Assembly: GCF_001634285.1 (NCBI RefSeq)
Contig: NZ_CP015438.1
Span: 2,058,001-2,122,000 of the forward strand
Length of the DNA: 64,000 nucleotides
Reading direction: 5' to 3'
DNA from: Anoxybacillus amylolyticus
GTDB taxonomy: Bacteria; Bacillota; Bacilli; Bacillales; Anoxybacillaceae
This document shows, piece by piece, positions 45,324 through 63,713 of this stretch; the first letter of the stretch is position 1, and each line of letters starts with the position of its first letter. Position numbers and translations under genes: made by a program. Below the pieces are notes generated by a model, which saw nothing but the letters and a program-made list of their open reading frames with translations, did no database searches and had not been told where the DNA came from.

Positions 45324-45337
45324 AAGGAGAGGATGCA

Positions 45338-46231
45338 ATGTCCTTGCGCTTTTTTCTTATTGAAGATGATGCGGTCGTACGAAAAATGCTAGAAAAAATT
45401 ATTGGAGAAAGCGGACTTGGTGAAGTCGTAGGACAAGCAGAAGATGGGCTTCACGTATCGATCGATCAGCTATATTCCGTTGATGTCGTGCTCATTGACC
45501 TACTTATGCCAGGGCTTGATGGCATTCAAACGATGAAAAAGCTGCGCGCGCAAGGATTCACTGGACCGTTCGTCATGATTTCTCAAGTGGAAAATAAAGA
45601 AATGATTGGGCAGGCGTATCTTCACGGCATCGATACATATATTCATAAACCGATTAACCGTTACGAAGTGGTTTCGGTTTTAAAACGAGTCGCCGACTAT
45701 CTTTCTGTCGCTTCATCGCTTGACTCCATCCGCCGCCTATTGCAAACGCTAGAAAAAACGAAACAACCAGCAACCGGCCCTGAAGCGACTATCGAACAAA
45801 AAGCTAGGCAGCTTCTTCTCGTTTTAGGCATCGCTGGCGAAGCAGGAGCATCTGATTTATTAGCCATCGTGCGCTTGCTTTCGGAACAAGAGCAACAAGG
45901 GCGAACGATTCACGACTTGCCACCACTGAAAGAGCTATATGCCCAAATAGTGCAACGTATATATAAAGAGGAGCAACTCATGCAAAAAGAAATACGCGCC
46001 ATGGAACAGCGCATTCGCCGCATGGTGCTACAAGCGTTTACCCATTTGTCGTCGCTAGGGTTAGCCGACTACACGAATCCTACATTTGAGCATTTCGCCC
46101 CTCGCTTGTTTGACTTTGAAGAAATTCGCTTGCGCATGCAAGAACTAGAAGCCGGAGAAAAAGCAACAAAATGCCGAATTAACGTAAAAAAATTTTTAAC
46201 TGCTTTCTATATGGAAATAAAAGGAGCATAG
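45338..46231 (+). CDS. glnL: Response regulator GlnL-like (YcbB domain)
   Basis: 297 residues from ATG at 45338 (MSLRFFLIEDDAVV), with AAAGGAGAGG upstream; a start at 45320 overlaps this site. The receiver has EDD, phosphoacceptor Asp in VVLIDLLMPGLDG and Lys in YIHKPINR. The C-terminal YcbB-type domain, QEQQGRTIHDLPPLKELYAQI, to KCRINVKKFLTAFYMEIKG, is the special output domain of GlnL. Controls glutamine catabolism/uptake genes such as glutaminase and glutamine permease in Bacillus. Target genes are not in direct contact here. Confidence 0.88.
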   Translation: MSLRFFLIEDDAVVRKMLEKIIGESGLGEVVGQAEDGLHVSIDQLYSVDVVLIDLLMPGLDGIQTMKKLRAQGFTGPFVMISQVENKEMIGQAYLHGIDTYIHKPINRYEVVSVLKRVADYLSVASSLDSIRRLLQTLEKTKQPATGPEATIEQKARQLLLVLGIAGEAGASDLLAIVRLLSEQEQQGRTIHDLPPLKELYAQIVQRIYKEEQLMQKEIRAMEQRIRRMVLQAFTHLSSLGLADYTNPTFEHFAPRLFDFEEIRLRMQELEAGEKATKCRINVKKFLTAFYMEIKGA

Positions 46232-46250
46232 CGACAGCATATGCTCCTTT
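46221..46250 (+). terminator. Terminator after glnL
   Basis: AAGGAGCAT and ATGCTCCTT form a 9-bp perfect stem with loop, followed by T-rich sequence; it includes the glnL stop codon. Confidence 0.8.
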
Positions 46251-46312
46251 CTAACTCCTTATTTTACATAATATTTTTCTCGTCAATTTATAAACAACCT
46301 CGAATATAGCCA

Positions 46313-46936
46313 CTATTTTTCACTAAATGCGATCTGAAGACCAATCCAGCCTAACAGCAGACCTTTGATGACGTTAATCCGTTTGGCCAGCAACTGATTC
46401 CCGAGGAGCACACGGCGCAATTTTTCCGAACACACGCTAACAGCGGTAAAAATGAATAATGCTTGAACGAGAAAAATAATTCCAAGCCCAAACATTTGCC
46501 CGCTTGTATGTCCTAATGACGGATTGACAAACTGCGGCAGTAACGCTAGAAAAAATAGCGATACTTTCGGGTTTAAAAGGTTCATCAAAATCCCTTTTTT
46601 ATAGAGCGCTTTATACTCCGCAGGCTTCGCGTCATTAAAAGCAAATCCCTCTTCTTTTTCCTTCCACGACTGCCATGCCAAATAAAGTAAGTACGCCGCA
46701 CCAGCATATTTCACAAGCGAAAATGCTAACGTTGATTGGTAAATAAGCGCGGATACGCCAAGTGTAGCGGCGGTAATATGAACAATCAATCCCGTACAAA
46801 GCCCAAGCGCCGTCGCAATGCCTGCTTGTTTATTTTGCGAAATGCTTTGCGCAATCACAAATAAAATATCCGGCCCTGGCATCAGCGTCAATAGCACTGC
46901 TACCCCTAAAAAAGACAACACAAGCCCCCAATCCAT
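46313..46936 (-). CDS. LysE/RhtB family amino acid exporter
   Basis: 207 residues from ATG at 46936 (MDWGLVLSFLGVAVLLTLMPGPDILFV), with AAGGAAGG upstream. Six hydrophobic segments; the PGPDILFV motif, TALGLCTGLIVHITAATLG and LMNLLNPKVSLFFLALLPQF are classical for the LysE/RhtB family. It exports amino acids or derivatives. Its frame overlaps the stop region of kynA, so it is translated with kynA; export of a tryptophan-related compound is possible but unproven. Confidence 0.9.
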   Translation of the reverse strand: MDWGLVLSFLGVAVLLTLMPGPDILFVIAQSISQNKQAGIATALGLCTGLIVHITAATLGVSALIYQSTLAFSLVKYAGAAYLLYLAWQSWKEKEEGFAFNDAKPAEYKALYKKGILMNLLNPKVSLFFLALLPQFVNPSLGHTSGQMFGLGIIFLVQALFIFTAVSVCSEKLRRVLLGNQLLAKRINVIKGLLLGWIGLQIAFSEK

Positions 46937-46953
46937 GTCCGTCCTTCCTTTCT

Positions 46954-47745
46954 CTATAGTTTCGTACGGATATTCCATAGCTCTGGGAAAAAGCGATGGT
47001 CAAGTACTTTTTTCAAATACGTTACACCAGATGAACCGCCGGTGCCCGTTTTATGTCCGATGATGCGTTCGACCGTTTTCATATGGCGGAAACGCCATTG
47101 TTGTAACCAATCTTCGATATCAATTAGCTTTTCTGCCAATTGGTATAGCTCCCAATATTGGTCAACGTTTTTATAGACCGCAAGCCACACCGCTTCCACG
47201 GTCGGATCTTCTTCATACGACTCGGAATAGTCGCGGGCAAGCAGCGCAGGATTAATCGAAAATCCAGCCCGCGCTAATGCCTTTAATGCCACATCGTAAA
47301 TGCTTGGCGCATAAAGGGCACGTTTCAATTCTTCGTGTAATCTAGGATCTTTTTCATAGATTTTGACGATATAATCCGTTTTATAGCCGAGCGCAAACTC
47401 AATCATGCGATATTGGTATGACTGAAATCCGGATGCTTGCCCTAACCGGTCGCGAAACTCCATATACTCCGATGGAGTCAACGTGGATAATACATCCCAC
47501 GCATGAATGATTTGTGACTGAATTTTCGACACGCGTGCAAGCATTTTAAACGCTGGGTCCATGTCGTTTCGTTCAATCGCATCAATTGCCGCGCGCAATT
47601 CATGCAAAATCAATTTCATCCATAATTCGCTCACTTGGTGAATAATAATAAACAACATTTCGTCATGATGATCGGAAAGACGTTTTTGGCTTGATAACAG
47701 TGCATCTAGCTGCAAATAGTCGCCATATGTCATTTTATGTGACAT
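46954..47745 (-). CDS. kynA: Tryptophan 2,3-dioxygenase
   Basis: 263 residues. Typical elements are [34 protein letters not shown] (heme/substrate region with conserved His), [44 protein letters not shown] (proximal His and substrate loop) and the C-terminal FFPELWNIR. It oxidises tryptophan to N-formylkynurenine, the first step of the kynurenine pathway. Its ribosome binding site GGTGGGAGC lies at the end of the upstream IS element. kynU lies beyond that element. Confidence 0.96.
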
Positions 47746-47749
47746 GCTC

Positions 47750-47870
47750 CCACCGCCTACGCTTCGCTTAGAGGTGGGGGCTTCTCAGGTAATCCCATCT
47801 CATGACGGGAAGTTGACTGAGCGATCCCCGTGTGTCCCACGGTTCGAGGACAAGTTAGGCTATCGCTAAT
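47750..47870 (-). ncRNA. Candidate omegaRNA at the right end of tnpB
   Basis: On the minus strand the tnpB 3' end runs into a non-coding stretch with paired CCGTGGG / CCCACGG-type segments and TTCCCGTCATGAGATGGGA hairpin, ending with the terminal hairpin. In IS200/IS605 elements this region gives the guide RNA, with the guide copied from the flank. The flank here is the start of kynA. Confidence 0.5.
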
Positions 47871-48964
47871 CGTTTCATGCCCTCATGTTTGATATTGATT
47901 GCCGCATTGACGTCCCTGTCGCTCTCGAATCCACATTCACAGCGGAATGTACGCTCAGAAAGCGATAAAGATTCCTTTACTTGACCGCAACATGAACAAG
48001 TTTTAGATGACGGAAACCACTTATCTATTTTGATAAGCTTTTTCCCTTGCTCCTCTAACTTGTATTGGAGAAATGTCGTGAACATCCCCCAGCCGTTGTC
48101 ATGAACGCTCTTGCCGAAATTCAGGACTTGCGACATCCCTTTCATGTTGAGGTCTTCGATGACCACGCAATCATAAAGTTTCGCTAATTGGTGCGACTCC
48201 TTATGCAGAAAGTCTTTTCGTTGGTTCGCCATTTTTTCATGTAGCTTTGCAATTTTCAGACGCTGTTTATGCCAACGATTAGACCCTTTCTTTCGGCGTG
48301 ATAATATCCGTTGTTCTTTCGCTAATTTTTCCAATGCTTGCCGATAGAAACGAGGATAATTGGCTCTCTTACCCTCGCTATCGACATACAGCGTATTCAT
48401 GGAAAAATCAAGCCCAACAACCGTTTGTATTTCTTTTGGTACAGGTTGATGTTCGTGCTCTGTAAGAATAGAAACATAGTATTTTCCTGTTTTTGTTTTC
48501 GTGATCGTACAAGCCTTGATGATATGGTGGGCAGGAATCTCCCGATGTTGCTTGAACTTGACCCATTTCAGTTTGGGTAACTTGATATAGCCATCTGAAA
48601 GTTGAATATTGCCATTGACCACATTTGTGGTGTACGACTGTTTCGCCTTGCGGTTTTTGAACTTTGGAAATCCAGCACGACCCGAAAAGAAATTTTGAAA
48701 CGCTTTCTGCAAATTCAATTGGGCGTTTGCCAGCGCAAGGCTATCCACTTCTTTAAGCCAAGGAAACTCCTTTTTGTACTTGGCAGGGGTCGGAAATGTT
48801 TGTTTTTTCAAAGCTTCTTTGTCGTCTTTGAACTTTTCATAAATTTGTATGCGTTCTTCAAGCATTTTGTTATAAACGAAACGGACACAACCGAAGGTTT
48901 TGACAAGCAGCTGTTCTTGTTCTTTTGTTGGGTACAAGCGGAACTGATAGGCTTTGTTTACCAT
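47855..48964 (-). CDS. tnpB: TnpB RNA-guided nuclease (IS605 type), intact
   Basis: 369 residues. N-terminal MVNKAYQFRLYPTKEQEQLL, then the RuvC triad: Asp in VVGLDFSMNTLYVD, Glu in CVVIEDLNMKGMS, and Asp in ECGFESDRDVNAAINI. A zinc finger CSCCGQVKESLSLSERTFRCEC lies before the last motif. All three catalytic residues are intact. TnpB cuts DNA at sites given by the omegaRNA and protects its element from loss. It starts 12 nt after tnpA. Confidence 0.95.
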   Translation of the reverse strand: MVNKAYQFRLYPTKEQEQLLVKTFGCVRFVYNKMLEERIQIYEKFKDDKEALKKQTFPTPAKYKKEFPWLKEVDSLALANAQLNLQKAFQNFFSGRAGFPKFKNRKAKQSYTTNVVNGNIQLSDGYIKLPKLKWVKFKQHREIPAHHIIKACTITKTKTGKYYVSILTEHEHQPVPKEIQTVVGLDFSMNTLYVDSEGKRANYPRFYRQALEKLAKEQRILSRRKKGSNRWHKQRLKIAKLHEKMANQRKDFLHKESHQLAKLYDCVVIEDLNMKGMSQVLNFGKSVHDNGWGMFTTFLQYKLEEQGKKLIKIDKWFPSSKTCSCCGQVKESLSLSERTFRCECGFESDRDVNAAINIKHEGMKRLAIA

Positions 48965-48976
48965 ATCGACACCACA

Positions 48977-49375
48977 TCACTTCATCCCTTGATTTTCTAT
49001 ATATTTTTTTATTACTTCAAGGGGGGCACCGCCCGTTGTAAGCAGGCAAAAACTTCTTGACCAAAAATATTCTTTCCACAGTTTTCTTTTCACTTGCGGA
49101 AAATACTTTTTAATCAGTCGAGAACTTGCACTTTTATAGGCATTGATGAACTTTGATAGTTCACTATTCGGATGTGCTTTGAACAAAATATGCACATGAT
49201 CCATATCGTGATTCCATTCGACCAAGGAAATATTGTAATTTTTCCCCAATCTCACAAACATATCTTTTGCATAGTCAGATATGGTATCATCAATCACTTG
49301 TCTGCGATATTTTACCACCAGAACAAGATGATAATACAACAGGAATACTGAATGGTTATTATTGTCTAATTTCAT
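48977..49375 (-). CDS. tnpA: IS200-type Y1 transposase TnpA
   Basis: 132 residues. The HUH motif is DHVHILFK, and the catalytic Tyr is in LEVIKKYIENQG near the C-terminus, with YYHLVLVVKYRRQVI at the N-terminus. It cuts and joins single-stranded DNA at the hairpin ends. The frame is complete and presumably active. GAAAGGTTGTTTT precedes the start. Confidence 0.95.
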   Translation of the reverse strand: MKLDNNNHSVFLLYYHLVLVVKYRRQVIDDTISDYAKDMFVRLGKNYNISLVEWNHDMDHVHILFKAHPNSELSKFINAYKSASSRLIKKYFPQVKRKLWKEYFWSRSFCLLTTGGAPLEVIKKYIENQGMK

Positions 49376-49460
49376 TGATAAAACAACCTTTCATTTTTCT
49401 AATACTGATTATATCATAACACAAAAAAAGAAACAACTCATACCTACGCCTCACCGAAAT

Positions 49461-50726
49461 TCATCTCCCACTTTCACTTCGTTTAGAAGTGGGAGACTTC
49501 TTTCGGAAAGATGTTAAAATTTGCACCGTTTGCCATACGTCTTCAAACGTATTGTACAACGCCACTGGCGCTAAGCGAATGCCGTTTGGTGTGCGGAAGT
49601 CCGGTATAACCCCTTCCGCTTTCAACGCTTTGCAAATTCGAGCCGCTTCTGGATGTTCTAAATAGACATGCCCCCCTCTTTGGGCATCGTCGGTTGGATT
49701 GCCGATCGTAAATCCGTATTCTGCTAGTTCATGCTCTATTAATTCCATCATATAGCGCGTCAATGCCAACGATTTTTGGCGGATTTTCTCGATACCGACT
49801 TCACAAAACAGTGAAAGCGAACCGATCAAAGGCGCGGTGCTTAAAATATGCGGCGTGCCGATTTGGAAGGCGCCCGCATGCATTTCAGGCGTTAAATCAA
49901 GCGCCATATCGAATTGCTTCGCTTTTTTCGAACTAAACCACCCGCTCAATCCAGGCTCGCGCCTGAAATGTTTTTCATTTACATATAAAGCAGCGACGCT
50001 ACCCGGTCCAGCGTTTAAGTATTTGTAGTTGCACCAAAAGGCAAAATCGATGCCCCAGTCGTGAAGCTGATGTGGAATCGCACCAACCGAGTGGCATAAA
50101 TCAAATCCGATTATAATGCCGCGCTTATGTGCTTCTTCTGTCAACATCTTCATATCAAACAGCTGCCCGCTGCGATAAAGAACACTTGGCAATACAATAA
50201 GGGCAATCTCATCCGTCATTGCCGCGATAATGTCCGCTTCGTCAATTGTCCGTCCGTCTCTGCTTTTAACGAGCACTAAATGCTCTTCTGGGTCATACCC
50301 TTTTAATTTCAATTGGCTTTTGAGCGCATAAATGTCCGATGGAAACGTGAGCTCATCGGCTAAAATTTTTGTTCGCTCACTTGTCGGACGATAAAACGTT
50401 GCGACTAATTGATGAAGGTTGACTGTTGTTGAGCCAGTCACAATAACTTCTTCTGGCTTACCGCCAACAATCGAGGCCATCTTCTCCCCTAATGACTCTG
50501 ATAAGTAAAACCACGGATATTTTCCGCTCGTCCAGCCGTCAATTCCATGCGTTTTCCATGCCTGCAATATGTCAAAAAGCGCCTGCTCGGCTCGCTTTGA
50601 AAGCAAGCCAAGTGAGTTTCCATCTAAATAAATTGTTCCTTCTGGCAAATAAAACTCCTCTCGGTACGGCGCTAGCTCGTCTTGTGCATCAAGCAAACGC
50701 GCATATTGCCGTTCATATCGGAACAT
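49461..50726 (-). CDS. kynU: Kynureninase with IS-derived C-terminus
   Basis: 421 residues. PLP-enzyme features: [95 protein letters not shown] (with the PLP lysine). Cleaves kynurenine to anthranilate and alanine. The last ~11 residues ([11 protein letters not shown]) are encoded by the terminal hairpin of the IS605 element, replacing the natural end. The core is complete and activity is likely retained. It is divergent from a TetR regulator with twin operators. Confidence 0.93.
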
Positions 50727-50789
50727 TTCCTCTTCGCCACCTTTTGTTTTGAATTTTCTTTATTTTTAGTTAAAATAATATAGAGAAAC

Positions 50790-50816
50790 TGACACGATGT
50801 CAATGACATAATGTCA
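50790..50816. promoter_or_regulatory. Twin palindromic operators between kynU and tetR
   Basis: TGACACGATGTCA (50790-50802) and TGACATAATGTCA (50804-50816), both of form TGACA-N3-TGTCA, one base apart. They lie 64 nt from the kynU start and 24 nt from the tetR start. Tandem palindromes at a TetR-divergent promoter are a likely operator with two dimers. Confidence 0.8.
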
Positions 50817-50839
50817 TTAGTGAAAAGGAAGTGACCGAC

Positions 50840-51433
50840 ATGAAACGCCAACAAAAAGCGCAACAAACGCGGCAAAAAATTGTTGCTGCTGCCTATGACG
50901 TGTTTTTGCAAAACGGATTTCAAAAAACAACGATTACGCAAATTATAAAGCAAGCAAATATTGGCTACGGCACGGCGTACGTCTATTTTCAAAACAAAGA
51001 CGAGATTTTTATTGACATCATGGAAGATGTGATGCAAAAATTTTACGCAATTGCCGAAATGCCGTTTGCGCCGAAAACAAAAGGAGAAGCAGTGCACCTT
51101 ATTCACCATCAAGTTCGGCTGTTTCTTGAACTAGCCGTGCAAGAGAAAGCGCTATTGCGAGTGATGAAAGAGGCGATCGGCATCTCCTCCATTGCCGCAA
51201 AAACGTGGAAACATATTCGTGAACGTTTTATTGCCCGAATTGCCGAAGATGTTGCATATTCGCAAAAAAACGGATTAGCCAACTGCCATTTGCAGCCGCA
51301 ATTAGTGGCACGTGGCTGGTTTTACGCAAACGAAATGTATATGTGGGAATTAACCGAGCCGTCTGTACCGTTTTCGCTAGAGGAAGCAGCACTGCACTTA
51401 ACTGAAATGTATACAAACGGAGTATATAGCTAA
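50840..51433 (+). CDS. TetR family regulator, probably of the kyn operon
   Basis: 197 residues from ATG at 50840 (MKRQQKAQQTRQKIVAAAYDVF), with AAGGAAG upstream; a GTG three codons earlier is less likely. The helix-turn-helix, TTITQIIKQANIGYGTAYVYFQNKDEIF, is complete. The C-terminal domain is a typical helical ligand-binding region, not matched to a named subfamily. Divergent from kynU with two shared operators, so it probably represses kynU-kynA and itself; the ligand may be kynurenine or a related compound. Confidence 0.85.
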   Translation: MKRQQKAQQTRQKIVAAAYDVFLQNGFQKTTITQIIKQANIGYGTAYVYFQNKDEIFIDIMEDVMQKFYAIAEMPFAPKTKGEAVHLIHHQVRLFLELAVQEKALLRVMKEAIGISSIAAKTWKHIRERFIARIAEDVAYSQKNGLANCHLQPQLVARGWFYANEMYMWELTEPSVPFSLEEAALHLTEMYTNGVYS

Positions 51434-51627
51434 TTATCGCTTTCTGCTCGGCGCGTATTCCACGTCGTATATTAGTTTATGAATAACATCATGAACAATC
51501 ATCGTTCTCCCCTCCATTCGTAGTTTCATTGTAAAAAATTTGCAATCATCCGACATCGGAATGGAGGTGGAAAATTATTCATACTTTCGACGGAGCTATT
51601 GGTTAACGAGAGCAACAATCGCAACGC

Positions 51628-52713
51628 TTATCGGTATTTTTGCAATCGCTTACGTAACGCCTCTTTATCGATCAGCGGCTCAGACGTTGTTGGTGTTTCC
51701 CATTGTTTTTTATAGTCTTCGAACCAATCAGGCAAAAGTTAGCGGCGAATCGGCGTGCGCTTTTGTGGCACGAAGCGGCGCCGTTTTCGTCGTTTTGCTT
51801 TTTCGACATCTTCGACCGTTTCGTACCGTTTTGCCTGCCAGTCATACAACACAGATTCCGCATACTTCCATGACGTACTTCCGTATTCAAGCGCGGTTTT
51901 TAGCGCTTCTAACACGAGTGGCGCATTTGTTTTTTCCATCCAGTCACTTATTCGTTTTTGAATATAATCATTATTTGGATAAAAATGATATTGTTGATAG
52001 AACGACCATATCTTCTTCTTTTCTTCTTGTTTATCATCATTGTTTTGGATATGTAAATGATATATTTTATACTGTTTATTTAGAACAATGTTTTCTAGTA
52101 ACATCGTCTGCTCCATTTGGTCAAATGAATGAGCGGTTGTGGTGTTTGTTATAAGTTCTTGGCCTTTCTTCCCCAAAATTCGTTGCGCAACTAGCGTCTG
52201 GCTCGTTTTTTGCACATGGTCGCCAAGCGTAAACTCATGAAGCATTGCTTGTCTATCATGAGCGACTGTCTGGTCATTATAAACAATTGCTTGGTCATTA
52301 ACTGTCTGTCCATCATCAGACGTTGGTTGTTCATCATAACTATTGTGATTGTCATCTTGAACAGCCAAAAGCGCTATTTGCTCTTTTCGGTGTCCTGTTG
52401 GTTTGATTTTTTTATGTTGATTATTTAGAACAATGTTTTGTTTTTGTAGTTCTTCGTAACAAATGCGGTACGATTTCGTTTGGTCAATTTTGTTGCGATT
52501 TCGATTCACTGCTTCGATATAGCCAAGCCGCTCTAGCCGTCGAATAACGCGGCGAACGGTGCTTGGCGACCAAAACGGCATAAATTGCTGCCATTGAGCA
52601 TACGTGAGCATGATCCACTCCGCCTCTTCGTCTTGCAATAACTGATGAAGCACACTAAGCACAATGCTTTCATTCAACCCAATTTAACAAGCAAGCTGTA
52701 GTGAACTATTCAT
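51628..52713 (-). pseudogene. DnaD-domain replication-initiator-like protein with two in-frame TAA codons
   Basis: ATG at 52713 with GGGGGAGAAGAGGA upstream begins MNSSLQLAC, then TAA (52686-52684) at codon 10, then IGLNESIVLSVLHQLLQDEE continues in frame. A winged-helix region (TYAQWQQFMPFWSPSTVRRVIRRLERLGYI) and a central variable acidic/Gln-rich part follow. The DnaD-like end has FYPNNDYIQKRISDWMEKTNAPLVLEAL and VLYDWQAKRY. A second TAA at 51741-51739 is followed in frame by LLPDWFEDYKKQWETPTT and the end QKYR. Both stops can come from a single base change. TTG at 52677 could restart translation. Likely a phage- or plasmid-derived relic. Confidence 0.7.
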
Positions 52714-53160
52714 TCCTCTTCTCCCCCTTCTCCTTTTCTATCGCTTTTCTAATGAGGAAAAGATAGATATGAGTGAAAAAAGGAATTCGAGAATATTTAA
52801 GGCAAGCTCGTGTATTGAGAAAATGGAAAAGCAATGATTACCATTAAAAGATTCGACCATGAGCAAATTTGCATTCTATAAAATTAATAGACATATCTTG
52901 AATCTTAAGCCAAGCCTCTACCTTTCGCTTAGAGCGTTTATCATCTGTTGTTCGATACACACCGTCCGTGTGAATGAACTACCTTGCGAGGGCGATTTTT
53001 CATTTTAGAAAATCGAGATTTCTAAAAAAATTTTGAACATATAAGTTGAAATTTTGTTTTACATCCAGCTGATTACCTTCCACGTTATACCATATCAGCT
53101 CGTATTGAGATGAAAGCAGAAACGAAAAATCGGAAATTCTTTATTGCAACTTATACAGTA
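52714..53160. other. AT-rich gene-free stretch with an IS-end-like motif
   Basis: No frame with a ribosome binding site was found. CCTCTACCTTTCGCTTAGAG at about 52915-52934 resembles the end motif of IS200/IS605 elements here (compare 47758-47777 and about 61704-61720), suggesting a lost element. The rest is AT-rich and unremarkable. Confidence 0.35.
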
Positions 53161-53192
53161 TTGACGAACTCTTTTTTTTTTTTTGTTATAAT
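53161..53192 (+). promoter_or_regulatory. Promoter with T13 tract in the spacer
   Basis: TTGACG (53161-53166) and TATAAT (53187-53192) are strong -35 and -10 boxes, but 20 bp apart, and the spacer contains 13 consecutive T (53172-53184). Loss of three T would give the ideal 17 bp. This could be a phase-variable promoter for the secreted-protein gene. Confidence 0.6.
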
Positions 53193-53288
53193 TTATGAAA
53201 ATATTACCTTCGAAGACTCTTCACCACAAGTTGTAAAAATGCTTTGTAACGAATTTGTGAGTATGTCATTATAGGAGAAGATAGAAAA

Positions 53289-54230
53289 ATGAAAATCTCA
53301 AAGAAATTCGTGTTCTTACTAGTTTTTTCCTTATGCATCTCTACATCTTTAGAGGGGGAATATGCATTTGCAGAGGATAATAGCACTAGTGGGGAGAACA
53401 TTGGTTCTTTAGTTGAGAATATAACCGATGCTCAAGATATCGTAGACCCTACTGTTTTAGAGCAAGGGAATGTTGCTGTGGTTCAAAATGAGGCGGGAAC
53501 CATACAAATTCCTCTCGATTCGAATGTAATTACAGTTAACGATGAGGACATTGAGAAGAATGAGTTGAAAATTACTCTTCCAAAATTAAACTCGGAAGAT
53601 GCAGTTAAAACAGAAAATGGAACGATTGTTTATCATAGTGCGAATGAGCCATCTGATTTAGCCGTCCAACCAACGACTGAAGGGATTCGTTCCTTAATAG
53701 TCATTAAAGATGCGTCAGCACCATATGAATATAGATTTACTATAGATGTTCCTGACGGAGAGAAATTAGTTTCAGCTGCCGAGTATCTAGGGGAAGAATT
53801 TGACACTGGTGAAGTTTTTATCGTTGATTCTGACAATAAGATTCAGAGTGTTTTTGCCCCAGCTTGGGCAAAAGATGCAAATGGCGATCCAGTTCCGACA
53901 CACTTTATTATTAAAGGAAACGACATAATACAGGTAGTTGATTTTAATGAGAATACAGCATTTCCAATAGTTGCTGACCCAAATTGGATGAAAATCGCGA
54001 AATGTTCTGCAGCTTTAGCAGGATTTGTAGGATTTAATTTATTTGCTGCTGCAAAGGTAATAAAAATTAAAAGATATATAAAAGAACTAGGTGGAGTAGC
54101 TGAAGCAGCAAAATTGCTTGTTGAGGCAACAACTTGGGAGGAGAAACTGCGCGTAGGAGGACAGGCTCTTGTAGGGCTTGCAGGGGAACTTACAGGGATA
54201 ACTGGTGTATACGAGGCTTGCTTTAAATGA
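53289..54230 (+). CDS. Secreted protein with two-Cys C-terminal domain, bacteriocin-precursor-like
   Basis: 313 residues. A signal peptide, MKISKKFVFLLVFSLCISTS with cleavage probably after YAFA (residue ~29), precedes an acidic middle domain (ENITDAQDIVDPTVLEQGN, IVIKDASAPYEYRFTIDVPDG). A FPIVADPNW motif marks the boundary to a C-terminal domain of about 75 residues. This domain starts and ends with cysteine (C239 and C311), is hydrophobic and lysine-rich (KVIKIKRYIKELGG), and fits a processed secreted peptide. Bacteriocin-like role is inference. AGGAGAAG precedes ATG; the partner membrane gene follows by 16 nt. Confidence 0.65.
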   Translation: MKISKKFVFLLVFSLCISTSLEGEYAFAEDNSTSGENIGSLVENITDAQDIVDPTVLEQGNVAVVQNEAGTIQIPLDSNVITVNDEDIEKNELKITLPKLNSEDAVKTENGTIVYHSANEPSDLAVQPTTEGIRSLIVIKDASAPYEYRFTIDVPDGEKLVSAAEYLGEEFDTGEVFIVDSDNKIQSVFAPAWAKDANGDPVPTHFIIKGNDIIQVVDFNENTAFPIVADPNWMKIAKCSAALAGFVGFNLFAAAKVIKIKRYIKELGGVAEAAKLLVEATTWEEKLRVGGQALVGLAGELTGITGVYEACFK

Positions 54231-54246
54231 AGGAGCGTTGTCAATA

Positions 54247-54642
54247 ATGAGAGAGATTGCGGTGATAATGAATTTATTATGTGGTTTATTGGTGTTAGTA
54301 TCAGGAACTATCTACTTTAAAAATACCTTAAAACTTAATAAAATCAATTCACCAAAAGAAGTGAATGTCCAAAATATTTTAAAAGCATTTGATACTGACT
54401 TTTTTAAATATCTTCCTGTAGCTTTTATTTCTATGACCATTCCTATTTTTATAAAAGGTACTCATTTAGAAGCAATCACAGAAGTGTTTTTTCCGGCTGT
54501 TTTAATAACAGCAGCGATAGAGAGCTTTCATTATCTGTTCAAACATTGGCTTACTAATAAAATAAGATATATAGGATATTACAAATGTTTGTTTATTATC
54601 CTACTAGGAATTATTAATGGTCTTTCTATTCTTGAGTTTTAA
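54247..54642 (+). CDS. Four-helix membrane protein, possible immunity partner
   Basis: 131 residues from ATG at 54247 (MREIAVIMNLLCGLLVLVSG), with AAGGAG upstream; an upstream frame overlaps the previous gene. Four hydrophobic helices: residues ~5-22, 58-72, 78-94 and 112-128. It has no family known to me. It is co-transcribed with the secreted-protein gene, and bacteriocin genes usually have a small membrane immunity protein beside them; this role is inference. A terminator follows. Confidence 0.6.
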   Translation: MREIAVIMNLLCGLLVLVSGTIYFKNTLKLNKINSPKEVNVQNILKAFDTDFFKYLPVAFISMTIPIFIKGTHLEAITEVFFPAVLITAAIESFHYLFKHWLTNKIRYIGYYKCLFIILLGIINGLSILEF

Positions 54643-54722
54643 GAATTCATTTGAATTGGAATGAAAAAATCATCTCGGTTTTTGCCTAGAGAGCGAGAAC
54701 TGTGAGTATTAGCCTTTCAGAG

Positions 54723-54753
54723 CACTGCAAATGATTAAATTGCAGTGTTTTTC
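54723..54753 (+). terminator. Terminator of the secreted-protein operon
   Basis: CACTGCAA and TTGCAGTG form an 8-bp stem, followed by TTTTTCG. Confidence 0.85.
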
Positions 54754-54816
54754 GTTTGAGAAAAGGAAGAAGGAATCGTTTCAACTATATACATGCAACT
54801 GGGGAGTTTCACTTAT

Positions 54817-54954
54817 TTTTTCGACTGTCGGAGGCAAGCCAAAGGCTTGCCTGCGTCACGCGTTCGCGTGACAGAGAACCGAACAACGAGCCGCCTCCCA
54901 GACAAATTCATTTGTCTGGGAGCGGTGTTGTTCGGTCGCCCGACAGTCGAAAAA
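54817..54954. repeat. 138-bp MITE-like element with 15-bp terminal inverted repeats and nested hairpins
   Basis: TTTTTCGACTGTCGG at 54817-54831 is the exact inverted complement of 54940-54954. Inside are AGGCAAGCC/GGCTTGCCT, GTCACGCG/CGCGTGAC and a long arm with CCGAACAAC/GTTGTTCGG enclosing CTCCCAGACAAA/TTTGTCTGGGAG. No coding region. A second, degenerate copy is at 59904-59983 in inverted orientation, so the element has moved or been copied. Confidence 0.85.
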
Positions 54955-55257
54955 TGTTAACACTTCAATGTGCATTTATATAGGAAGTACCGGAAATCCT
55001 TAACTGATCTCTTTGAGTTCTTCACTAAAAGTTTCATCTGACCACGTATGCAAAGAAGATATAATTACATCGTGTAATCGTTAAAAAAATAAAAATTCAT
55101 CACGATACAATGACAATAAAGCGTCGAAAAAAAATCTTATAAAAAAGCGGTCTTGCCTCTGCGTTTCCGCTTCTGGCAAATACCGCTTCTATGCTTGGTT
55201 GTTCGTAAGAAGTTGTCTAAGCGAACTGTTGGTTGTTTCATTTCTCGAACGATGACA

Positions 55258-56607
55258 CTATCTGATTTTCTCCAACGCCGCCGTTAATGTTTGCACTAAA
55301 AACACAATGTCTTCGTCTTCGATTGTTAGTGGCGGTGATAATGTCAATACGTTGTTATATCCAGCGACCGTCGTTCCGTTTTTGCCGATAATCAGTCCGT
55401 TTTCCTTACAAATTCCGATTACTTGATTGACGAGCGCTACATCAAGCGGGGCTTTCGATTGTTTATCTGCCACTAATTCAATCCCGATGAGCAATCCTTT
55501 GCCGCGGACGTCGCCGACGTACGGATGGTCGTAGAGGAGGTTTTTCCATTCATTTAGTAGCTGTGCGCCGACGTCGTGCGAACGTGTTGCTAGATTTTCT
55601 TTTTCCATGATTTCTAAATTCTTTACTGCAAGCGCGCATGCTGCTGGGTTACCGCCAAACGTATTGACGTGGCGAAAATAATCGTACTCTTCCGTCCCTT
55701 TGAACGTTTCGTAAATATCTTTGCGAACGGCGGTTGCAGATAGCGGCAAGTAAGCGCTTGTAATCCCTTTCGCCATCGTAATAATGTCCGGCTTTACGCC
55801 ATCATGCATAAAGCCAAACGGTTTGCCCGTACGCCCGAACCCGCAAATCACTTCGTCGACAATAAGCAAGGCGCCGTGTTTTTCACACACTTCTTTCACT
55901 GCTTGCAAATATCCGTCCGGTGGAATAAGCACTCCGCCACCGGTAATAATCGGCTCCATAATGACCGCGGCAATCGTTTCGCTTAATTCCCATGTCATGA
56001 CTTGGTCGATCGCCTTTACTGACTTCAGCTCGCGCGGGTCGGTTGCCGTTTCCTCGTCCCGATAGCTGTCCGGAGGCGCGACATGAATAAATCCTGTCGC
56101 TAGCGGCTCGTATTTATATTTCCGCTGCGCCTGTCCCGTCGCGGCGAGTGCCCCCATGGAATTTCCGTGATATGCCCGATAGCGGGAAATAATTTTATAG
56201 CGGTGATAGTCGCCTTTTTGTTGGTGATATTGTCTCGCGATTTTAAAAGCGGTTTCATTCGCTTCCGATCCGCTATTGGAAAAGAAAATGACATATTCGT
56301 CGCCAAGCCATTCGTTCAATTTTTCTCCTAATTCAATCGCGGGCACGTGGCTTTGGGTCAGTGGAAAATAGGCGAGCGTTTTTAACTGTTCATACGCTGC
56401 TTTTGCCAATTCTTCGCGCCCATAGCCAACGTTGACGCACCATAGACCTGCCATCGCATCTAAATATTTTTTCCCTGTATGATCCGTCACCCAGCAGCCT
56501 TTCGCTTCTGTTACAACAAGCGTCGATTGTGGGCTATACGGCTTCATCGAATGCCATATATAGCGCTCATCTTTCGCAAGCAGCTGGCTTTGATCTGTTT
56601 GCACCAT
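55258..56607 (-). CDS. Class III omega-aminotransferase (beta-alanine/pyruvate type)
   Basis: 449 residues from ATG at 56607 (MVQTD...; AAGGG upstream); an ATG two codons earlier is possible. Class III hallmarks: GSEANETAFKIARQYH, YRAYHGNSMGALAATG, IVDEVICGFGRTGKPFG, PLP lysine in PDIITMAKGITSAYLPLSA, and NTFGGNPAACALAV. It transfers an omega-amino group, for example from beta-alanine to pyruvate, giving malonate semialdehyde. The following methylmalonate/malonate semialdehyde dehydrogenase gene, 17 nt upstream on the same operon, fits this pathway. Confidence 0.9.
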   Translation of the reverse strand: MVQTDQSQLLAKDERYIWHSMKPYSPQSTLVVTEAKGCWVTDHTGKKYLDAMAGLWCVNVGYGREELAKAAYEQLKTLAYFPLTQSHVPAIELGEKLNEWLGDEYVIFFSNSGSEANETAFKIARQYHQQKGDYHRYKIISRYRAYHGNSMGALAATGQAQRKYKYEPLATGFIHVAPPDSYRDEETATDPRELKSVKAIDQVMTWELSETIAAVIMEPIITGGGVLIPPDGYLQAVKEVCEKHGALLIVDEVICGFGRTGKPFGFMHDGVKPDIITMAKGITSAYLPLSATAVRKDIYETFKGTEEYDYFRHVNTFGGNPAACALAVKNLEIMEKENLATRSHDVGAQLLNEWKNLLYDHPYVGDVRGKGLLIGIELVADKQSKAPLDVALVNQVIGICKENGLIIGKNGTTVAGYNNVLTLSPPLTIEDEDIVFLVQTLTAALEKIR

Positions 56608-56630
56608 TATCATCCCTTCTTTCGTCCAAA

Positions 56631-58097
56631 TTAAAAATCAAACCGAGACGTAATCATTTTCTTGCGCGTATAAAAGTTCACTCCATCTTTACCGTTGACA
56701 TGTAAATCGCCATAAAACGAATCTTTCCAGCCAGAGAATGGGAAGAACGCCATCGTCGCCGGTACGCCGATGTTAATGCCAAGCATCCCCGCATCCGCCT
56801 CTTCGCGGAATTTTCGTACCGCTTTCGCGTCTTTCGTATAAATCGTCGCGCCGTTTCCGTACCGCGATTGGCGAATATAAGAAAGCGCCTCATCTAAATC
56901 GGCTGCACGCAATAAGCTAAGGACAGGAGCGAAAATTTCTTCTTTTGCAATCGTCATTTCTGGGGTCACGTGGTCAAAAATTGTTGGCCCAAGGAAGTTT
57001 CCTTCCGTCATTTCTTCCATTTCTTTACGACCGTCTCTAAGTAGCGTGGCCCCTTCTTCAATCCCTTTTTCGATATAGCTAAGCACCTTTTCGCGATGTG
57101 ATTGGCGAATAACTGGCGTCAATAATACCTCTTCATCTAAACCGTTGCCGATCGTTAATTCGTCTGCCTTTTGCTTTAACGTTTGCACAAATTTTTCGTT
57201 CTCGCCAACGACAACAACGGCACTGCACGCCATGCAGCGTTGTCCAGCGCTTCCGAACGCCGAGCTAATGACGTGCTGCGCAGCGAGTTCAATATCAGCA
57301 TCTGGCATGACGATATGATGGTTTTTCGCCCCAGAAAGCGCTTGTACCCGCTTCCCTTTCGCTGCCGCTCGCTCATATACGTATTTGGCAACCGGCTGTG
57401 AGCCGACGAACGAAACCGCACGAATATCTTCATGGTCGATTAACGCATTCACAACATCGTGCGCTCCGTGCACGATATTAAGTACCCCTGCTGGCGCCCC
57501 TGCTTCCGTGAACAGTTCTGCTAATTTATTTGCTAACATCGGCGTGCGTTCGGACGGTTTAAGGACAAACGTATTTCCGCATGCAATCGCCAACGGGAAC
57601 ATCCAAAGCGGCACCATCATCGGGAAATTAAATGGCGTAATGCCGCCGACAACCCCAAGCGGATAACGAAACATCTCCGAATCAATGTCTTCGGCAATTC
57701 CCGCTAACGACTCTCCCATCATTAACGTTGGGGCACCCGCCGCAAACTCGACGCACTCGATGCCGCGCTGAATTTCCCCATATGCTTCTTTATACGCTTT
57801 GCCGTTTTCTAACACGATGAGCTTCGCCAATTCTTCATGGTGCTTATTTAGCAAATGATGGAATGAAAACATGATGCGCGCCCGCTTCGGAACCGGGGTG
57901 TTCCGCCACGTTGCAACCGCTTTTTTTGCAGCTTGCACCGCTTGCTCGACATCTTCTTTTGTCGAGATCGGCACTCTCGCTAACACTTCCCCCGTTGCTG
58001 GATTTGGTACTTCTAACGTTTCCGTTCCACTTGATTCCACCCATTTTCCATCAATAAAATTTTTTAACACCGTTGTTTCTTTTTTCGTTACAGCCAT
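56631..58097 (-). CDS. mmsA: Methylmalonate/malonate-semialdehyde dehydrogenase (CoA-acylating)
   Basis: 488 residues. MMSDH hallmarks: [68 protein letters not shown] (in place of the usual Glu region), catalytic Cys in [17 protein letters not shown], and [23 protein letters not shown]. It converts malonate or methylmalonate semialdehyde plus CoA to acetyl- or propionyl-CoA. TTAGGAGGGAACAAA precedes ATG. First gene of the operon with the aminotransferase; a PucR-type regulator gene lies upstream. Confidence 0.93.
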
Positions 58098-58221
58098 TTT
58101 GTTCCCTCCTAATGACGATAAACTGTACTCTCATTATCTCGCAGTTTCAAAAGGCATTCATTAGACAAAATGTAAAAATAGCACATCCCTCCATTCCACA
58201 ATATGACAAGCGTGAATCGTT

Positions 58222-59793
58222 TTATTCCAAAAGATTTGGCAAATATTCATACGCATAAATCATACATTCCATCGCCAATCGCTTTTCCGGATGCATAAAA
58301 TCATCGCCTAATAGTTGTTCAAGCTTTTGAAGGCGGTGATAAAGTGTTTGGCGCACAATAAAAAGCTGTTCGGCTGTCTCTTTTTTCGAACCGTTGCACG
58401 CTAAATATACTTTTAGCGTTTCTAGTAACTTTCCGTTATGTTTTTGGTCATATTGAATAATTGGAGCTAAATATTCGTTCACTATGTCACGTAAATTGCC
58501 AGACGCGTCCATTAATGAAACAATTCTTGCCATATGCAAATCTTCATAAAAGTAGCTAGCGGCTTTTTTGCCAAGACGTTGTTGGATACGGCTTGTTTCT
58601 TGCGCTGTTTGATAGCTTTTCGGGAGCGAGGCAAGGTTGTCCACAAATTTGCCAATGCTTAATCCAATCGATAGTTTTTTTTGCATAAACTCCGATTGCA
58701 ACAGACGATCAATTCCTGCTTGCATCCGTACTTTCCATGTGTGTACGTCGCGTGTATTTACAAAAATAAAAAGAAGAGAATGGCGTAACTGAACGGAAAA
58801 TAAATGGAAGCCTTGTTGTTCAAAAATCGTCCGAAACAGTAGGAGAAAATACGTTACATCTTTTAATCGTTTTGCCGGCGGGAATTTGCAAAGCACAACA
58901 ACGCCACCTTTGGGCTTTACTTGCGGAGCGTGCTCGGTGAAATAAGCAGCAATTGCTTGCGGGCTATGCTCTCCTTCTATCCAGCCTTTCAGCCATTCTT
59001 GTTCGGCCAATCGCTTTTTTTCCTCAACGTACAAATCGCGCAATAAATGCTGGGCGATGGCGGTTGCTGTCCGATCTAAAATAAGCAAATCAAATTCGCT
59101 TATTTCTTGGGCGGTAGAAAGAATGGAGAGCCGAGCATAGTCGTTGTAAAACAGCTGTATCGCTTGGGAAGCGGTTTGCTTCGACGGTTGTTCAACGGAT
59201 GCCAACCATTCCTGCTTCTTTTTTTCCGAGCATTCCGGAACGAACTCTGCCTCTTTTCCATTCATTTGAAACAATACTTGATGGCCTAAATAATGGTGTA
59301 AAAACTTTAAAATCTCGTAATAATGGTCAATCGCCAATAACTTTTTGTTGAGCTGTTGAGAGTATGCTTCTAAATTAGCGATCATTTGATAGTGGCGGTT
59401 AATTAAGTACGTATGAATATCTTGTGTAATTTCAACAAACGGAACTTCTTGTAAAAAAAGAAGGATTGGAAATTGGTGTTCATCCGCCAATTGAATCACT
59501 TCTTGCGGAATCGAGGAAGTATGGGTACCAATTTCGATACATAATCCAGAGGCGTCGCATTCAATCAGCTGCCGCAAAAAGGAAAGAAGGAGCGATTCGT
59601 TCTCTTTCCAGCCAACACCAGTAGATAAAATCAATTCTTTTCCTCTTAATAAATGATGAATGTTAGTCACTTCGACGACGTGCACCCACTTCACGATGCG
59701 ATGCACCCCTTGGTGTCCCGCAATTACTTTTGCGTTTTCAAAATGTTTTCGCTTCAACACATCTGCCACCGTGAATTGAAAATGTTCGTGCAT
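58222..59793 (-). CDS. PucR family transcriptional regulator
   Basis: 523 residues from ATG at 59793 (MHEHFQFTVADVLKRKHF), with GAGGGGGTGGGAGC upstream; the longer frame lacks one. N-terminal PucR domain with GVHRIVKWVHVVEVTNIHHLLRGKELILSTG, then a GGDEF-like/central domain, and a C-terminal helix-turn-helix (SLMDASGNLRDIVNEYLAPI to GSKKETAEQLFIVRQTLYHRLQKLEQLLGDDF). Such regulators activate purine, beta-alanine or GABA-type pathways. It lies upstream of mmsA in the same direction and is likely its activator. Confidence 0.88.
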   Translation of the reverse strand: MHEHFQFTVADVLKRKHFENAKVIAGHQGVHRIVKWVHVVEVTNIHHLLRGKELILSTGVGWKENESLLLSFLRQLIECDASGLCIEIGTHTSSIPQEVIQLADEHQFPILLFLQEVPFVEITQDIHTYLINRHYQMIANLEAYSQQLNKKLLAIDHYYEILKFLHHYLGHQVLFQMNGKEAEFVPECSEKKKQEWLASVEQPSKQTASQAIQLFYNDYARLSILSTAQEISEFDLLILDRTATAIAQHLLRDLYVEEKKRLAEQEWLKGWIEGEHSPQAIAAYFTEHAPQVKPKGGVVVLCKFPPAKRLKDVTYFLLLFRTIFEQQGFHLFSVQLRHSLLFIFVNTRDVHTWKVRMQAGIDRLLQSEFMQKKLSIGLSIGKFVDNLASLPKSYQTAQETSRIQQRLGKKAASYFYEDLHMARIVSLMDASGNLRDIVNEYLAPIIQYDQKHNGKLLETLKVYLACNGSKKETAEQLFIVRQTLYHRLQKLEQLLGDDFMHPEKRLAMECMIYAYEYLPNLLE

Positions 59794-59903
59794 GCTCCCA
59801 CCCCCTCGCTTTATTACCATACGTATTCCGCAAAAACATTGCCATTCCTGCCTTATATAGATGCACTTTGAAACTTCCACATTTTTACCGTTTCCATCGT
59901 TAG

Positions 59904-59983
59904 TTTTCGACTGTCGGGCGACCGAACAACATCGCGTTCTCTGTCACGCCAACGCGCGACGAAGACAATCCACAGGCTTGCCT
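59904..59983. repeat. Truncated second copy of the 138-bp MITE-like element
   Basis: TTTTCGACTGTCGG and GCGACCGAACAAC at 59904-59930 match the inverse of the right end of the copy at 54817-54954. GTTCTCTGTCACGC, AACGCG and CAGGCTTGCCT follow in the same order as the inverted other half. The central long hairpin and the far terminal repeat are missing. Confidence 0.8.
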
Positions 59984-59991
59984 CGATATAG

Positions 59992-60020
59992 AAAAAGGAA
60001 CGAGTTGCCCCGTTCCTTTT
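59992..60020 (-). terminator. Terminator after the small 77-residue gene
   Basis: AAAAGGAACG and CGTTCCTTTT form a 10-bp stem with a short loop and a T-run on the minus strand; it overlaps the stop codon. Confidence 0.8.
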
Positions 60021-60252
60021 ATTGGTTAATCGGCATATACAGACGAATGTCGTTCATCATGCGCTCGAACTGCTCGTGATCAAGAAAGTCATCGCTTTTC
60101 CAGTTCTCCACAATCCAACGCACTAATTCTTCCGGTGTGTTAAACACTTCACCGCTTGTATCTGCCTTGCGAATCATGTACCTTCCGTTGTCTTCATCAA
60201 TCGTTACTTCGCATGGAAACGCGCCATCTTTTGCTTGTAAGTAAAACTCCAC
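60019..60252 (-). CDS. Conserved small hypothetical protein
   Basis: 77 residues from GTG at 60252 with AAAGGAGAGGTTGCG upstream. The sequence starts MEFYLQAKDGAFPCEVTIDED and has PEELVRWIVENWKSDDFLDHEQFERMM, acidic with a C-terminal helix. No function is recognised. The strong ribosome binding site and a terminator after it argue for a real gene of its own. Confidence 0.65.
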   Translation of the reverse strand: MEFYLQAKDGAFPCEVTIDEDNGRYMIRKADTSGEVFNTPEELVRWIVENWKSDDFLDHEQFERMMNDIRLYMPINQ

Positions 60253-60355
60253 CGCAACCTCTCCTTTATTTGAAAATGAAGGATTTTTAATAGCTATGCA
60301 TTGTTCGGTTGCTGTATGATACGTACGGAAAAATATTTACGAGCGTCTGCACTGT

Positions 60356-60500
60356 CAACTCCCCCCCACTTAGCTAACGCTTGAAGCGGGGGCTTGCAAC
60401 TCCCCAGAAGTGCAAGCGGGCATCAATATCCTTCCTTCGCATGGGGTTGCATGAGGGTGGTTGACGGCACCCCGACCACACAAGTCATGCTTGGGCGGTC
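60356..60500 (-). ncRNA. Candidate omegaRNA of the solo TnpB
   Basis: Downstream of tnpB on the minus strand a structured non-coding region holds a hairpin CCCCCGCTT...AAGTGGGGG, at about 60360-60390, and TTGCAAG/CTTGCAC-type pairings. Such RE-proximal RNAs guide TnpB. Guide sequence would come from the flank beyond about 60356. Confidence 0.45.
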
Positions 60501-61597
60501 ACGCCATGATGGTACTCCATTCCCTTTTGGCGTAAGTTTAACGCCCCTACTCGATCATCGTTGGAGGTATAGCCACATGCCCCACATATAAACGTATGGA
60601 TCTGTTTTTTGCGGTTGTTTTTATGTGTAAACCCACATGTTGGGCATTGCTGGCTCGTGTAAGCAGGAGGAACGGCAAGGACGTGGCTGTCGTGTAGTCG
60701 TGCTTTATATTCAATGAACAAGCGGAGTTGAGCGAACGCCCATGTGAATCGCACGTATCGGTCTTTTTTGCGAACGCACACCGTATCGTTGATGTCTGTC
60801 AAATCCTCCAGGACAAGCAAGCTATGCTTTCCTGCAAACTGAACAAGTGCCTTGCTGACACAATGATTGACATTGGTCATGAAACGGTTTTCTTGTCCAG
60901 CGATTTTCTTTAGCTTGCGTTTAGCGGATTTCGTGTTGCGTTGTTGGAGCTCTTTGCGAAGTCGGACGTATCGTGCTTTGACGCTCTGAATGGGAGTGCC
61001 CTTGATAAACAAATGACGATTGCGTGAATCCACAGCGGTCACTAAAAAGCGCATCCCCATGTCCACACCGACCACGTGTTGATACACCGAAGGGGGATGG
61101 ATCACTTTTTTCGCTGCGACATGCAAGTAGAATTTGCCTTTTTTGTACACAAGTGTACCTGTGCCAAACTCCCAAGAGCCATCGAAATAGCGTTCCTGCC
61201 CTTTTGTCAGAAAAGGCATTTTGATTCGTTTGTTTAGCGTGCCAATGCTCATCTGTCCGTCTTTCGTAAACGAGTAGTCTCGATTGTACGAATATTGGAG
61301 TTTAGGCTTTTTAAACACCGCTAGCGTGCGTTCGCCATTGGATTTCATGGACGCATAGACACCTGCGACAATTGTACACACATTACACGCCATTTGTGAT
61401 TTTAGTCCGAACAACTCCCGCAAGTCTCGATACACCAAGACTTGCAGTTTCTTAAACGAGGAAAGCAGATGGTGTTCGTATGCGACTTTCGATGCAAAGT
61501 TCAACGCTTGTTTCATCGCTTGCATCGTCTCAATGAGTTGCAGGTGTTGAGCTTCGGTTGGTAACCACCGAATTTTAGCGGTGACGACCAATTCCAT
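60485..61597 (-). CDS. tnpB: Solo TnpB (IS1341-type) RNA-guided nuclease
   Basis: 370 residues from ATG at 61597 (MELVVTAKIRWLPTEAQ), with the ideal ribosome binding site AAAGGAGGTGA. The RuvC residues are Asp in VVGVDMGMRFLVTAVD, Glu in LLVLEDLTDINDT and Asp in TSNDDRVGALNLRQ. A four-Cys zinc finger lies at CPTCGFTHKNNRKKQIHTFICGACG. No tnpA is close. It differs from the TnpB at 47855 in sequence and end hairpins, so it belongs to a separate element type. Confidence 0.93.
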   Translation of the reverse strand: MELVVTAKIRWLPTEAQHLQLIETMQAMKQALNFASKVAYEHHLLSSFKKLQVLVYRDLRELFGLKSQMACNVCTIVAGVYASMKSNGERTLAVFKKPKLQYSYNRDYSFTKDGQMSIGTLNKRIKMPFLTKGQERYFDGSWEFGTGTLVYKKGKFYLHVAAKKVIHPPSVYQHVVGVDMGMRFLVTAVDSRNRHLFIKGTPIQSVKARYVRLRKELQQRNTKSAKRKLKKIAGQENRFMTNVNHCVSKALVQFAGKHSLLVLEDLTDINDTVCVRKKDRYVRFTWAFAQLRLFIEYKARLHDSHVLAVPPAYTSQQCPTCGFTHKNNRKKQIHTFICGACGYTSNDDRVGALNLRQKGMEYHHGVTAQA

Positions 61598-61814
61598 ACG
61601 TTTCACCTCCTTTTTTTCAGTATATATACAATTATACCATATATTACTGAAAGAATGGACCGTTTTTCGTGCAAAAAGTAAAAAAGGGCAATTCCTCCCC
61701 CACCTTTCCTTCGCTTAGAGTCTAAATTTTCAACGACACGACCAATTGAATCCCCTTGCTGAAGCAAGCTTGTTAAAGATTAGACGTTTTATGAATATAT
61801 TTTCCCGCTGTTCA

Positions 61815-62261: not shown

Positions 62262-62342
62262 CATCATTCCTCCTAACGTTATTTTTATTTCTTCCACCTT
62301 CGCCAAATGGTATAATAGAAAGTTGTAAAGGGGGTGAAAAAG

Positions 62343-62954: not shown

Positions 62955-62984
62955 CAGGTGCTAATCACGAGCGTTGATTATCTA

Positions 62985-63021: not shown

Positions 63022-63050
63022 GAAAAGCTAGAACTTAAGAATATTTTAGT

Positions 63051-63638: not shown

Positions 63639-63686
63639 CATCTCCCTCCTTTGCCATTTTATTATATCTTTCTATCACAATTATAA

Positions 63687-63712: not shown

Positions 63713-63713
63713 A

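Follow-up and report, generated by a model that had tools for sequence, protein, structure and literature searches.

The window, i.e. the whole 64,000-nt stretch analysed, carried a two-gene unit in which the gene of a secreted precursor was followed by that of a small membrane protein, here called the partner (Table 1). The gap between the precursor stop and the partner start was 16 nt and contained the AGGAG. The partner began at the ATG at 54247 (mechanical ORF start: GTG at 54205), which agreed with the spacing proposed in the original prediction. The consensus scan, which accepts spacers of 16-18 nt, did not pick up the promoter-like element, with TTGACG beginning at 53161 and TATAAT at 53187-53192; it returned 7 promoter-like sites against a mean of 6.5 in shuffles. 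As pure speculation, slippage in its 13-T tract (53172-53184) could change the spacing, and expression might be phase-variable. The terminator that had been proposed to close the unit was found as a hairpin (54723-54747) with a U-run; the consensus scan missed it because of its loop of 9 nt (limit 8). Two Rfam matches in 52700-55300 were far under the gathering scores, belonged to eukaryotic families and were taken as chance.

Table 1. Features of the two-gene unit and the stretch that holds it (positions of the window).
Feature	Position	Strand	Basis or remark
About 2.5-kb stretch	52782..55271	.	Two genus relatives (G200, G300) have about 40 bp instead
Promoter-like TTGACG...TATAAT	53161..53192	+	20-nt spacer including 13-T tract; read from sequence
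Precursor ORF	53289..54230	+	313 aa, closticin 574-like preprobacteriocin; ORF and homologues
Signal peptide, residues 1-28	53289..53372	+	Cut after AFA placed by eye
Acidic pro-domain, residues 29-230	53373..53978	+	pI 4.05; common to Actinomycetota proteins
Asp230-Pro231, inferred release junction	53976..53981	+	Asp-Pro conserved; predicted mature start of CLB
Inferred mature bacteriocin, residues 231-313	53979..54227	+	83 aa, Cys239 and Cys311
AGGAG, probable ribosome-binding site of partner	54231..54235	+	Read from sequence
Probable immunity protein	54247..54642	+	131 aa, 3-4 transmembrane helices; leave-one-out profile E 8.3e-23
Intrinsic-terminator-like hairpin and 5 T	54723..54752	+	-13.9 kcal/mol, z -3.66

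The cassette lay between a DnaB_2-domain gene (51739-52677, reverse strand) and a class-III aminotransferase gene (55258-56613, reverse strand); by Pfam, the six neighbours were a kynureninase, a TetR, the DnaB_2 gene, the aminotransferase and an IS200/IS605 pair. The IS200/IS605-type TnpB and TnpA genes were at 47855-49375, a few kb upstream. G+C content was 35-37% in windows starting at 53000-54000 versus 37-51% in the others of 44000-64000. Positions 52781 and 55272 were joined across approximately 40 bp in G200 and G300, only the right flank matched at the cassette site in the remaining four genomes of the genus, and the precursor occurred in one of the seven genus genomes, that of the window. 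Two dispersed repeats bracketed the cassette. A MITE-like repeat of about 120 bp (53039-53159, ends TATAAGTTG...CAACTTATA), just upstream of the promoter-like site, had further copies in G000, G200, G301 and G302 among the matches listed. The other, hairpin-rich and about 200 bp long (54783-54983, arms TTTTTCGACTGTCGG...CCGACAGTCGAAAAA, 100% complementary), matched G000 at more than 20 places and G302, over shorter lengths, at dozens among the matches listed, and had no Rfam match. Phage-borne copies of the precursor with the partner were found in Paenibacillus phage BN12 (L018) and in an IMG/VR contig (L063); the viral-contig scans returned nothing with the window protein alone and one locus, L063, with A3 and A4. 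The BN12 copy (L018 4837-5858) had no in-frame signal peptide, began beside a transposase gene and is probably 5'-shortened.

The signal peptide, acidic pro-region and FPIVADPNW junction of the original prediction were all borne out by the ORF. Hydropathy of the signal peptide peaked at 1.67 (residue 3), the pro-domain had a computed charge of about -28 and pI of 4.05, and FPIVADPNW comprised residues 225-233, which contain Asp230-Pro231. The C-terminal part, or cargo (residues 231-313), was as hydrophobic as foreseen (computed charge +3.9, pI 9.3, GRAVY 0.44, 8801 Da) and held two of the three Cys residues of the precursor (16, inside the signal peptide, 239 and 311). The precursor had no Pfam or NCBIfam match, and the closticin-like proteins examined reached no Pfam or NCBIfam family at the family cut-off. 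Matches of distant members to the NCBIfam EntV family (E 0.0089), JUQZ family (E 0.036) and YjfF permease (E 0.0012 and 2.7e-4) were far under the cut-off and were not used. PHROG 25631, which has no function, matched the window protein at E 1.6e-5. Sequence searches of the PDB with the cargo and pro-domain profiles gave nothing at E <= 1. Anti-phage defence was rejected, PADLOC having no match for the precursor, the partner or the DnaB_2 gene.

The original prediction knew of no named family, which was mistaken for the precursor: over the 33 residues compared, it had 18/33 identity (BLASTP, E 2e-11) to the part of the closticin 574 sequence printed in a paper on a snail peptide (PMC7690686). 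A 'putative closticin' of Paenibacillus phage BN12 had 54% identity over residues 28-312, 91% of the query (tblastn). Closticin 574, of Clostridium tyrobutyricum ADRIAT 932, was described by Kemperman (2003); according to the available text of PMC10888436 it is made as a 309-aa preprotein with a 27-residue signal peptide, yields an 82-aa peptide, and has reportedly been proposed by its authors to be matured by a general or specific proteinase. The same text describes CLB, the closticin 574-like bacteriocin of Bacillus altitudinis ECC22, with a predicted mature form of 83 aa (PMC10888436, 2024), and gives a primer that encodes PDWSKIAA after the start codon, i.e. a predicted mature start at the Pro of Asp-Pro. 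The cargo of L004 (genome G240) had the same PDWSKIAA start. The window precursor fitted the closticin size plan of a preproprotein of about 310 aa and a C-terminal peptide of 82-83 aa (313 and 83, the latter by homology). Based on the identity to closticin 574 and on the start shared by CLB and L004, the window protein is regarded as closticin 574-like, with residues 231-313 as the putative mature peptide. Closticin 574, a bacteriocin, was the only characterised relative found, in line with an antimicrobial function; mature CLB made in a cell-free system was inactive on two indicators (PMC10888436, available text), which counts against it.

Both Cys were invariant in 19/19 aligned cargoes, including ones behind different, shorter leaders (the 19 were chosen, with L008, L012, L017, L032, L037-L039, L042, L043 and L047 left out). 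Homology of the window-type cargoes to seven short-leader cargoes was supported (hhalign 98.9%, E 2.7e-17), and that to five Streptomyces-type cargoes was less firm (84.7%, E 6.7e-6). The cargo profile matched 27/299 genomes of the order at E <= 0.001. The short-leader cargoes (L038, L039, L040, L041, L042, L044 and L047) were secreted, mostly without an adjacent membrane gene. Thiol-oxidoreductase-like genes lay beside two precursors (L029 7111-7788, Thioredoxin_4, E 5.7e-27; L013 5415-5861, E 2.2e-4, under the Pfam cut-off), and such thioredoxin-fold genes would fit a cargo that carries a disulfide. A Cys239-Cys311 disulfide in the mature peptide is highly probable from the conservation of the pair. 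The invariant pair also suggests one reason for the inactivity of the cell-free CLB preparation; our guess is that the cell-free set-up may fail to form the disulfide.

Asp-Pro was invariant in the 17 rows of alignment A4, and stood at the pro-domain end in 41/41 profile-aligned rows (41 loci) reaching the junction, in an alignment that leans towards the motif because the profile was trained on rows ending in Asp-Pro (47 rows, 44 loci; six rows stopped short and were not counted). The motif was absent from the leaders of the nine short-leader cargoes read, and thus goes with the pro-domain. Asp230-Pro231 is likely the cut site in the window precursor, as judged from this conservation and from the predicted start of CLB. 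Asp-Pro bonds are acid-labile and certain protein domains cut themselves at this bond, which makes self-release possible. Cleavage by the pro-domain itself is put forward as a tentative and rather unlikely hypothesis; the likelihood of release by a protease is equal or greater.

The pro-domain also occurred before other cargoes. Among 296 genomes of the class to which a Streptomyces globisporus record belongs, 24 matched the pro-domain profile at E <= 1e-8. The match extended only up to residue 232-235, i.e. to the junction, in three of four actinobacterial loci and, among the matches listed, in 7/20 plasmid records; others continued into a two-Cys cargo. Cargoes behind the pro-domain were of the two-Cys type (L072, L079, L100), of a Lys-Glu-Thr/Val type with several Cys (10 loci, grouped by eye, 9/10 with a small transmembrane neighbour), DUF4258 (L082, 25.3 bits at a cut-off of 25; L022, 20.9, under the cut-off), EndoU-like (L086, 24.7 against a cut-off of 25.3) and DUF2599 (L093, 52.7 against a cut-off of 25); L009, from the order of the window, also ended in DUF2599 (31.5). 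This is the plan of polymorphic toxins, with one N-terminal pro-domain before two-Cys, DUF4258, DUF2599 and EndoU-like cargoes, which are putative toxins. A diverged pro-domain (WPVYVDP) was observed in a Mycolicibacterium phage gene (L024 2779-5231), with a Lys-rich C-terminal end and followed by the gene of a 151-residue protein.

A small membrane ORF came next in 9/10 pro-domain loci of a 24-locus set and in 15/29 pro-domain loci of a 29-locus set (14/29 without), versus 11/119 control genes. Fisher values were 8.5e-11 for all 24 loci (18/24, short-leader loci included) and 1.4e-6 for the 29-locus set, and are only a guide, since related loci are not independent and the 119 control genes were all from Bacillota, unmatched for actinobacteria. 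Neighbours were ORFs of <=180 aa from -60 to +200 nt in the 24-locus set and from -40 to +100 nt in the 29-locus set, tallied by hand, with up to three downstream ORFs listed per locus in the latter. L038 and L041 count in the 18/24 only through ORFs of 46-49 residues, perhaps spurious, and L076 is included for the one helix of an ORF that resembles a lipoprotein; L077 had a membrane-type cargo yet no small transmembrane neighbour. Left out of the locus counts were L084 (missed by the junction pattern, carries ADP), L075 (partial match), L017 (same as L070; its frame ends 4 residues past the junction region and cargo-like sequence continues in another frame), and L068, L069, L071 and L074, which are the same places as L014, L015 and L016. 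Both DUF4258 cargoes (L022 2698-3760 and L082) were followed by a DUF2283 gene instead of a membrane ORF, and the EndoU-like cargo by a 187-residue ORF with no predicted helix. From these three cases, which are few, the neighbour gene seems to vary with the cargo type. No relation was detectable by hhalign between membrane partners of two-Cys members in Bacillota and those in Streptomyces (E 0.65).

The chances are about even that the pro-domain serves Gram-positive bacteria as a release module of general use for antibacterial toxins that they secrete, in Bacillota, Actinomycetota and their phages, with cargoes ranging from membrane-active peptides to RNase-like domains, an immunity gene for each, and an invariant Asp-Pro bond that is cut, possibly by the domain and not by a dedicated protease. 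This reading is weakened by the context of Asp-Pro in L096-L098, where at least 327 residues follow it, as in long multi-domain proteins, and in L020 (Streptomyces), a protein with the annotation 'DNRLRE domain-containing' that has the pro-domain as its last part; in these four loci Asp-Pro may be structural rather than a release bond. Through the shared pro-domain, a bacteriocin that has received little study would be connected with a broad range of secreted Actinomycetota proteins, and it would become testable whether Asp-Pro cleavage is a common release step.

Hydropathy of the partner (19-residue window) peaked at 2.39 (residue 4), 1.95 (residue 113), 1.61 (residues 76-80) and 1.45 (residue 51). 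Of the four helices first proposed, three were clear and one was weaker, so that four are plausible, not proven. Pfam, NCBIfam, PHROG and PADLOC gave no match for the partner, and for this protein the original prediction was right in naming no family. Because precursor neighbours had served to build the initial partner profile, the search was repeated leaving each member out: each of seven partners was then the best ORF of its own locus (E 5.9e-9 to 8.3e-23), with runner-up ORFs at E 0.017 or worse. One of these loci, L063, had been found via the precursor alone. Partner members were diverged (20-48% identity to that of the window), and tblastn with the partner gave no match in plasmids or phages, though BN12 has a diverged copy.

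The partner family adjoined the precursor in 7/8 long-form two-Cys loci of Bacillota and their phages, lying 9-16 nt downstream in the window, L018, L063 and L031, and divergently upstream in L028, L029 and L030. In the eighth, L013 (a Clostridiales contig), the next ORF had three helices and fell outside the partner family (E 0.093). At L031 (7580-8293), only the end of the pro-domain, the cargo and the partner were present, between two similar multi-helix membrane genes. Long-form precursors occurred in 5/299 genomes of the order (G000, G074, G095, G240 and G100, the match in G100 covering residues 190-313 only), with the partner adjoining in 5/5, and these five together with the phage loci L018 and L063 are the seven loci with the pair; in the class sample (398 genomes) a full-length precursor was found only in G000 and G240. 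Strong partner matches (E <= 3.4e-25) were present in 9/299 genomes of the order, five with the long-form precursor and four without it (G043, G262, G217 and G058, the last from the genus of the window). G043 and G262 were collinear with G240 on both sides in large blocks (90-93%), with the precursor stretch absent; to meet the partner at the same place without the toxin can fit an immunity gene, the toxin having been lost or never having arrived. G129 had a decayed precursor-partner pair, with a stop inside the partner match (E 1.6e-7). The unit is more than chance, as both proteins have relatives and their adjacency is conserved.

The two genes very probably encode a closticin-like bacteriocin and its membrane immunity protein, as judged from homology and gene order. 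The layout of precursor and immunity partner, as first proposed, is supported by the identity to closticin 574, the adjacency in 7/8 loci and the precursor-less copies of the partner, and is slightly lowered by the lack of the partner family at L013. The 313-residue preproprotein would be exported via its own signal peptide, with the acidic pro-domain holding the peptide inactive, or at least soluble. Outside the cell, a cut at Asp230-Pro231 would free an 83-residue cationic, hydrophobic and presumably helical peptide, in which Cys239 and Cys311 would form the disulfide. The peptide would insert in and permeabilise membranes of related Gram-positive bacteria, and membrane permeabilisation is the probable mode of action. 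The 131-residue protein in the membrane of the producer would protect it, and the membrane gene is very likely the immunity gene of the closticin-like peptide. No immunity protein is named for closticin-like proteins in the parts of the literature available, and the partner, found also without the precursor, is a concrete candidate for one. Among the open-licence papers listed (titles and starts of abstracts), none named the partner, the pro-domain or Asp-Pro release, which is not proof of novelty. Nothing pointing to the contact system, the other option of the original prediction, came up in these analyses, which had other aims.

That the partner is instead a helper for export or processing of the peptide would agree with its location in the membrane and with its adjacency to the precursor. 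The precursor, however, has its own signal peptide, and four genomes keep the partner without a long-form precursor match, G043 and G262 at the collinear locus itself, which speaks against a part in export; the case of G262 is weakened by the distant two-Cys cargo that this genome carries elsewhere. Moreover, the membrane neighbours of Streptomyces two-Cys members with the same pro-domain show no detectable relation to the partner, and beside the two DUF4258 members the neighbour is soluble. A helper role is very improbable. The SDP cannibalism toxin is a disulfide peptide cut from a secreted precursor, with SdpI as its membrane immunity protein, and the unit could by the same logic serve as an SDP-like cannibalism or lysis factor used on siblings under stress. 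Inspection by eye of the ORFs in 48000-60000 showed no sdpA/sdpB-like gene, and the patchy distribution (1/7 genus genomes) fits an inter-strain weapon better, which makes use on siblings quite improbable.

The absence of the stretch from G200 and G300 and the two phage-borne copies with the partner are the grounds for viewing the unit as prophage or mobile-element cargo that acts in phage competition or benefits the host, and not as a chromosomal bacteriocin. Against it, the named neighbours in the window were metabolic and regulatory genes, the DnaB_2-domain gene and the IS200/IS605 pair, and no phage structural gene was recognised in 48000-60000. Little probability is given to this origin, which is in any case not exclusive of bacteriocin function. 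A circular bacteriocin was also considered and rejected, with no DUF95/SpoIIM or ABC gene among the six neighbours and a pro-region of 230 residues.

The unit now read as a closticin-like bacteriocin with its probable immunity gene resembles SDP/SdpI by layout, with a putative disulfide peptide from a secreted precursor and a probable membrane immunity protein, and differs in that no sdpAB was seen by eye beside the window precursor. Closticin 574 and the window protein are alike in the signal peptide, long pro-region and C-terminal peptide of 82-83 residues, and differ in organism and in the immunity gene, which goes unmentioned for closticin 574 in the text available. CLB, like the window protein, has a predicted mature peptide of 83 residues, which in CLB begins PDWSKIAA as in L004; the immunity-family gene is divergent upstream in G240, and none is mentioned for CLB in the available text. 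In the contact-dependent CDI ionophore toxins of E. coli, delivery is through CdiA and the immunity protein, CdiI, is small and hydrophobic (PMC11630599, available part). By that description, they are like the window pair, as read here, in joining a helical membrane-active toxin domain to a membrane immunity protein that is small and highly divergent, and unlike it in their contact delivery by CdiA in E. coli.
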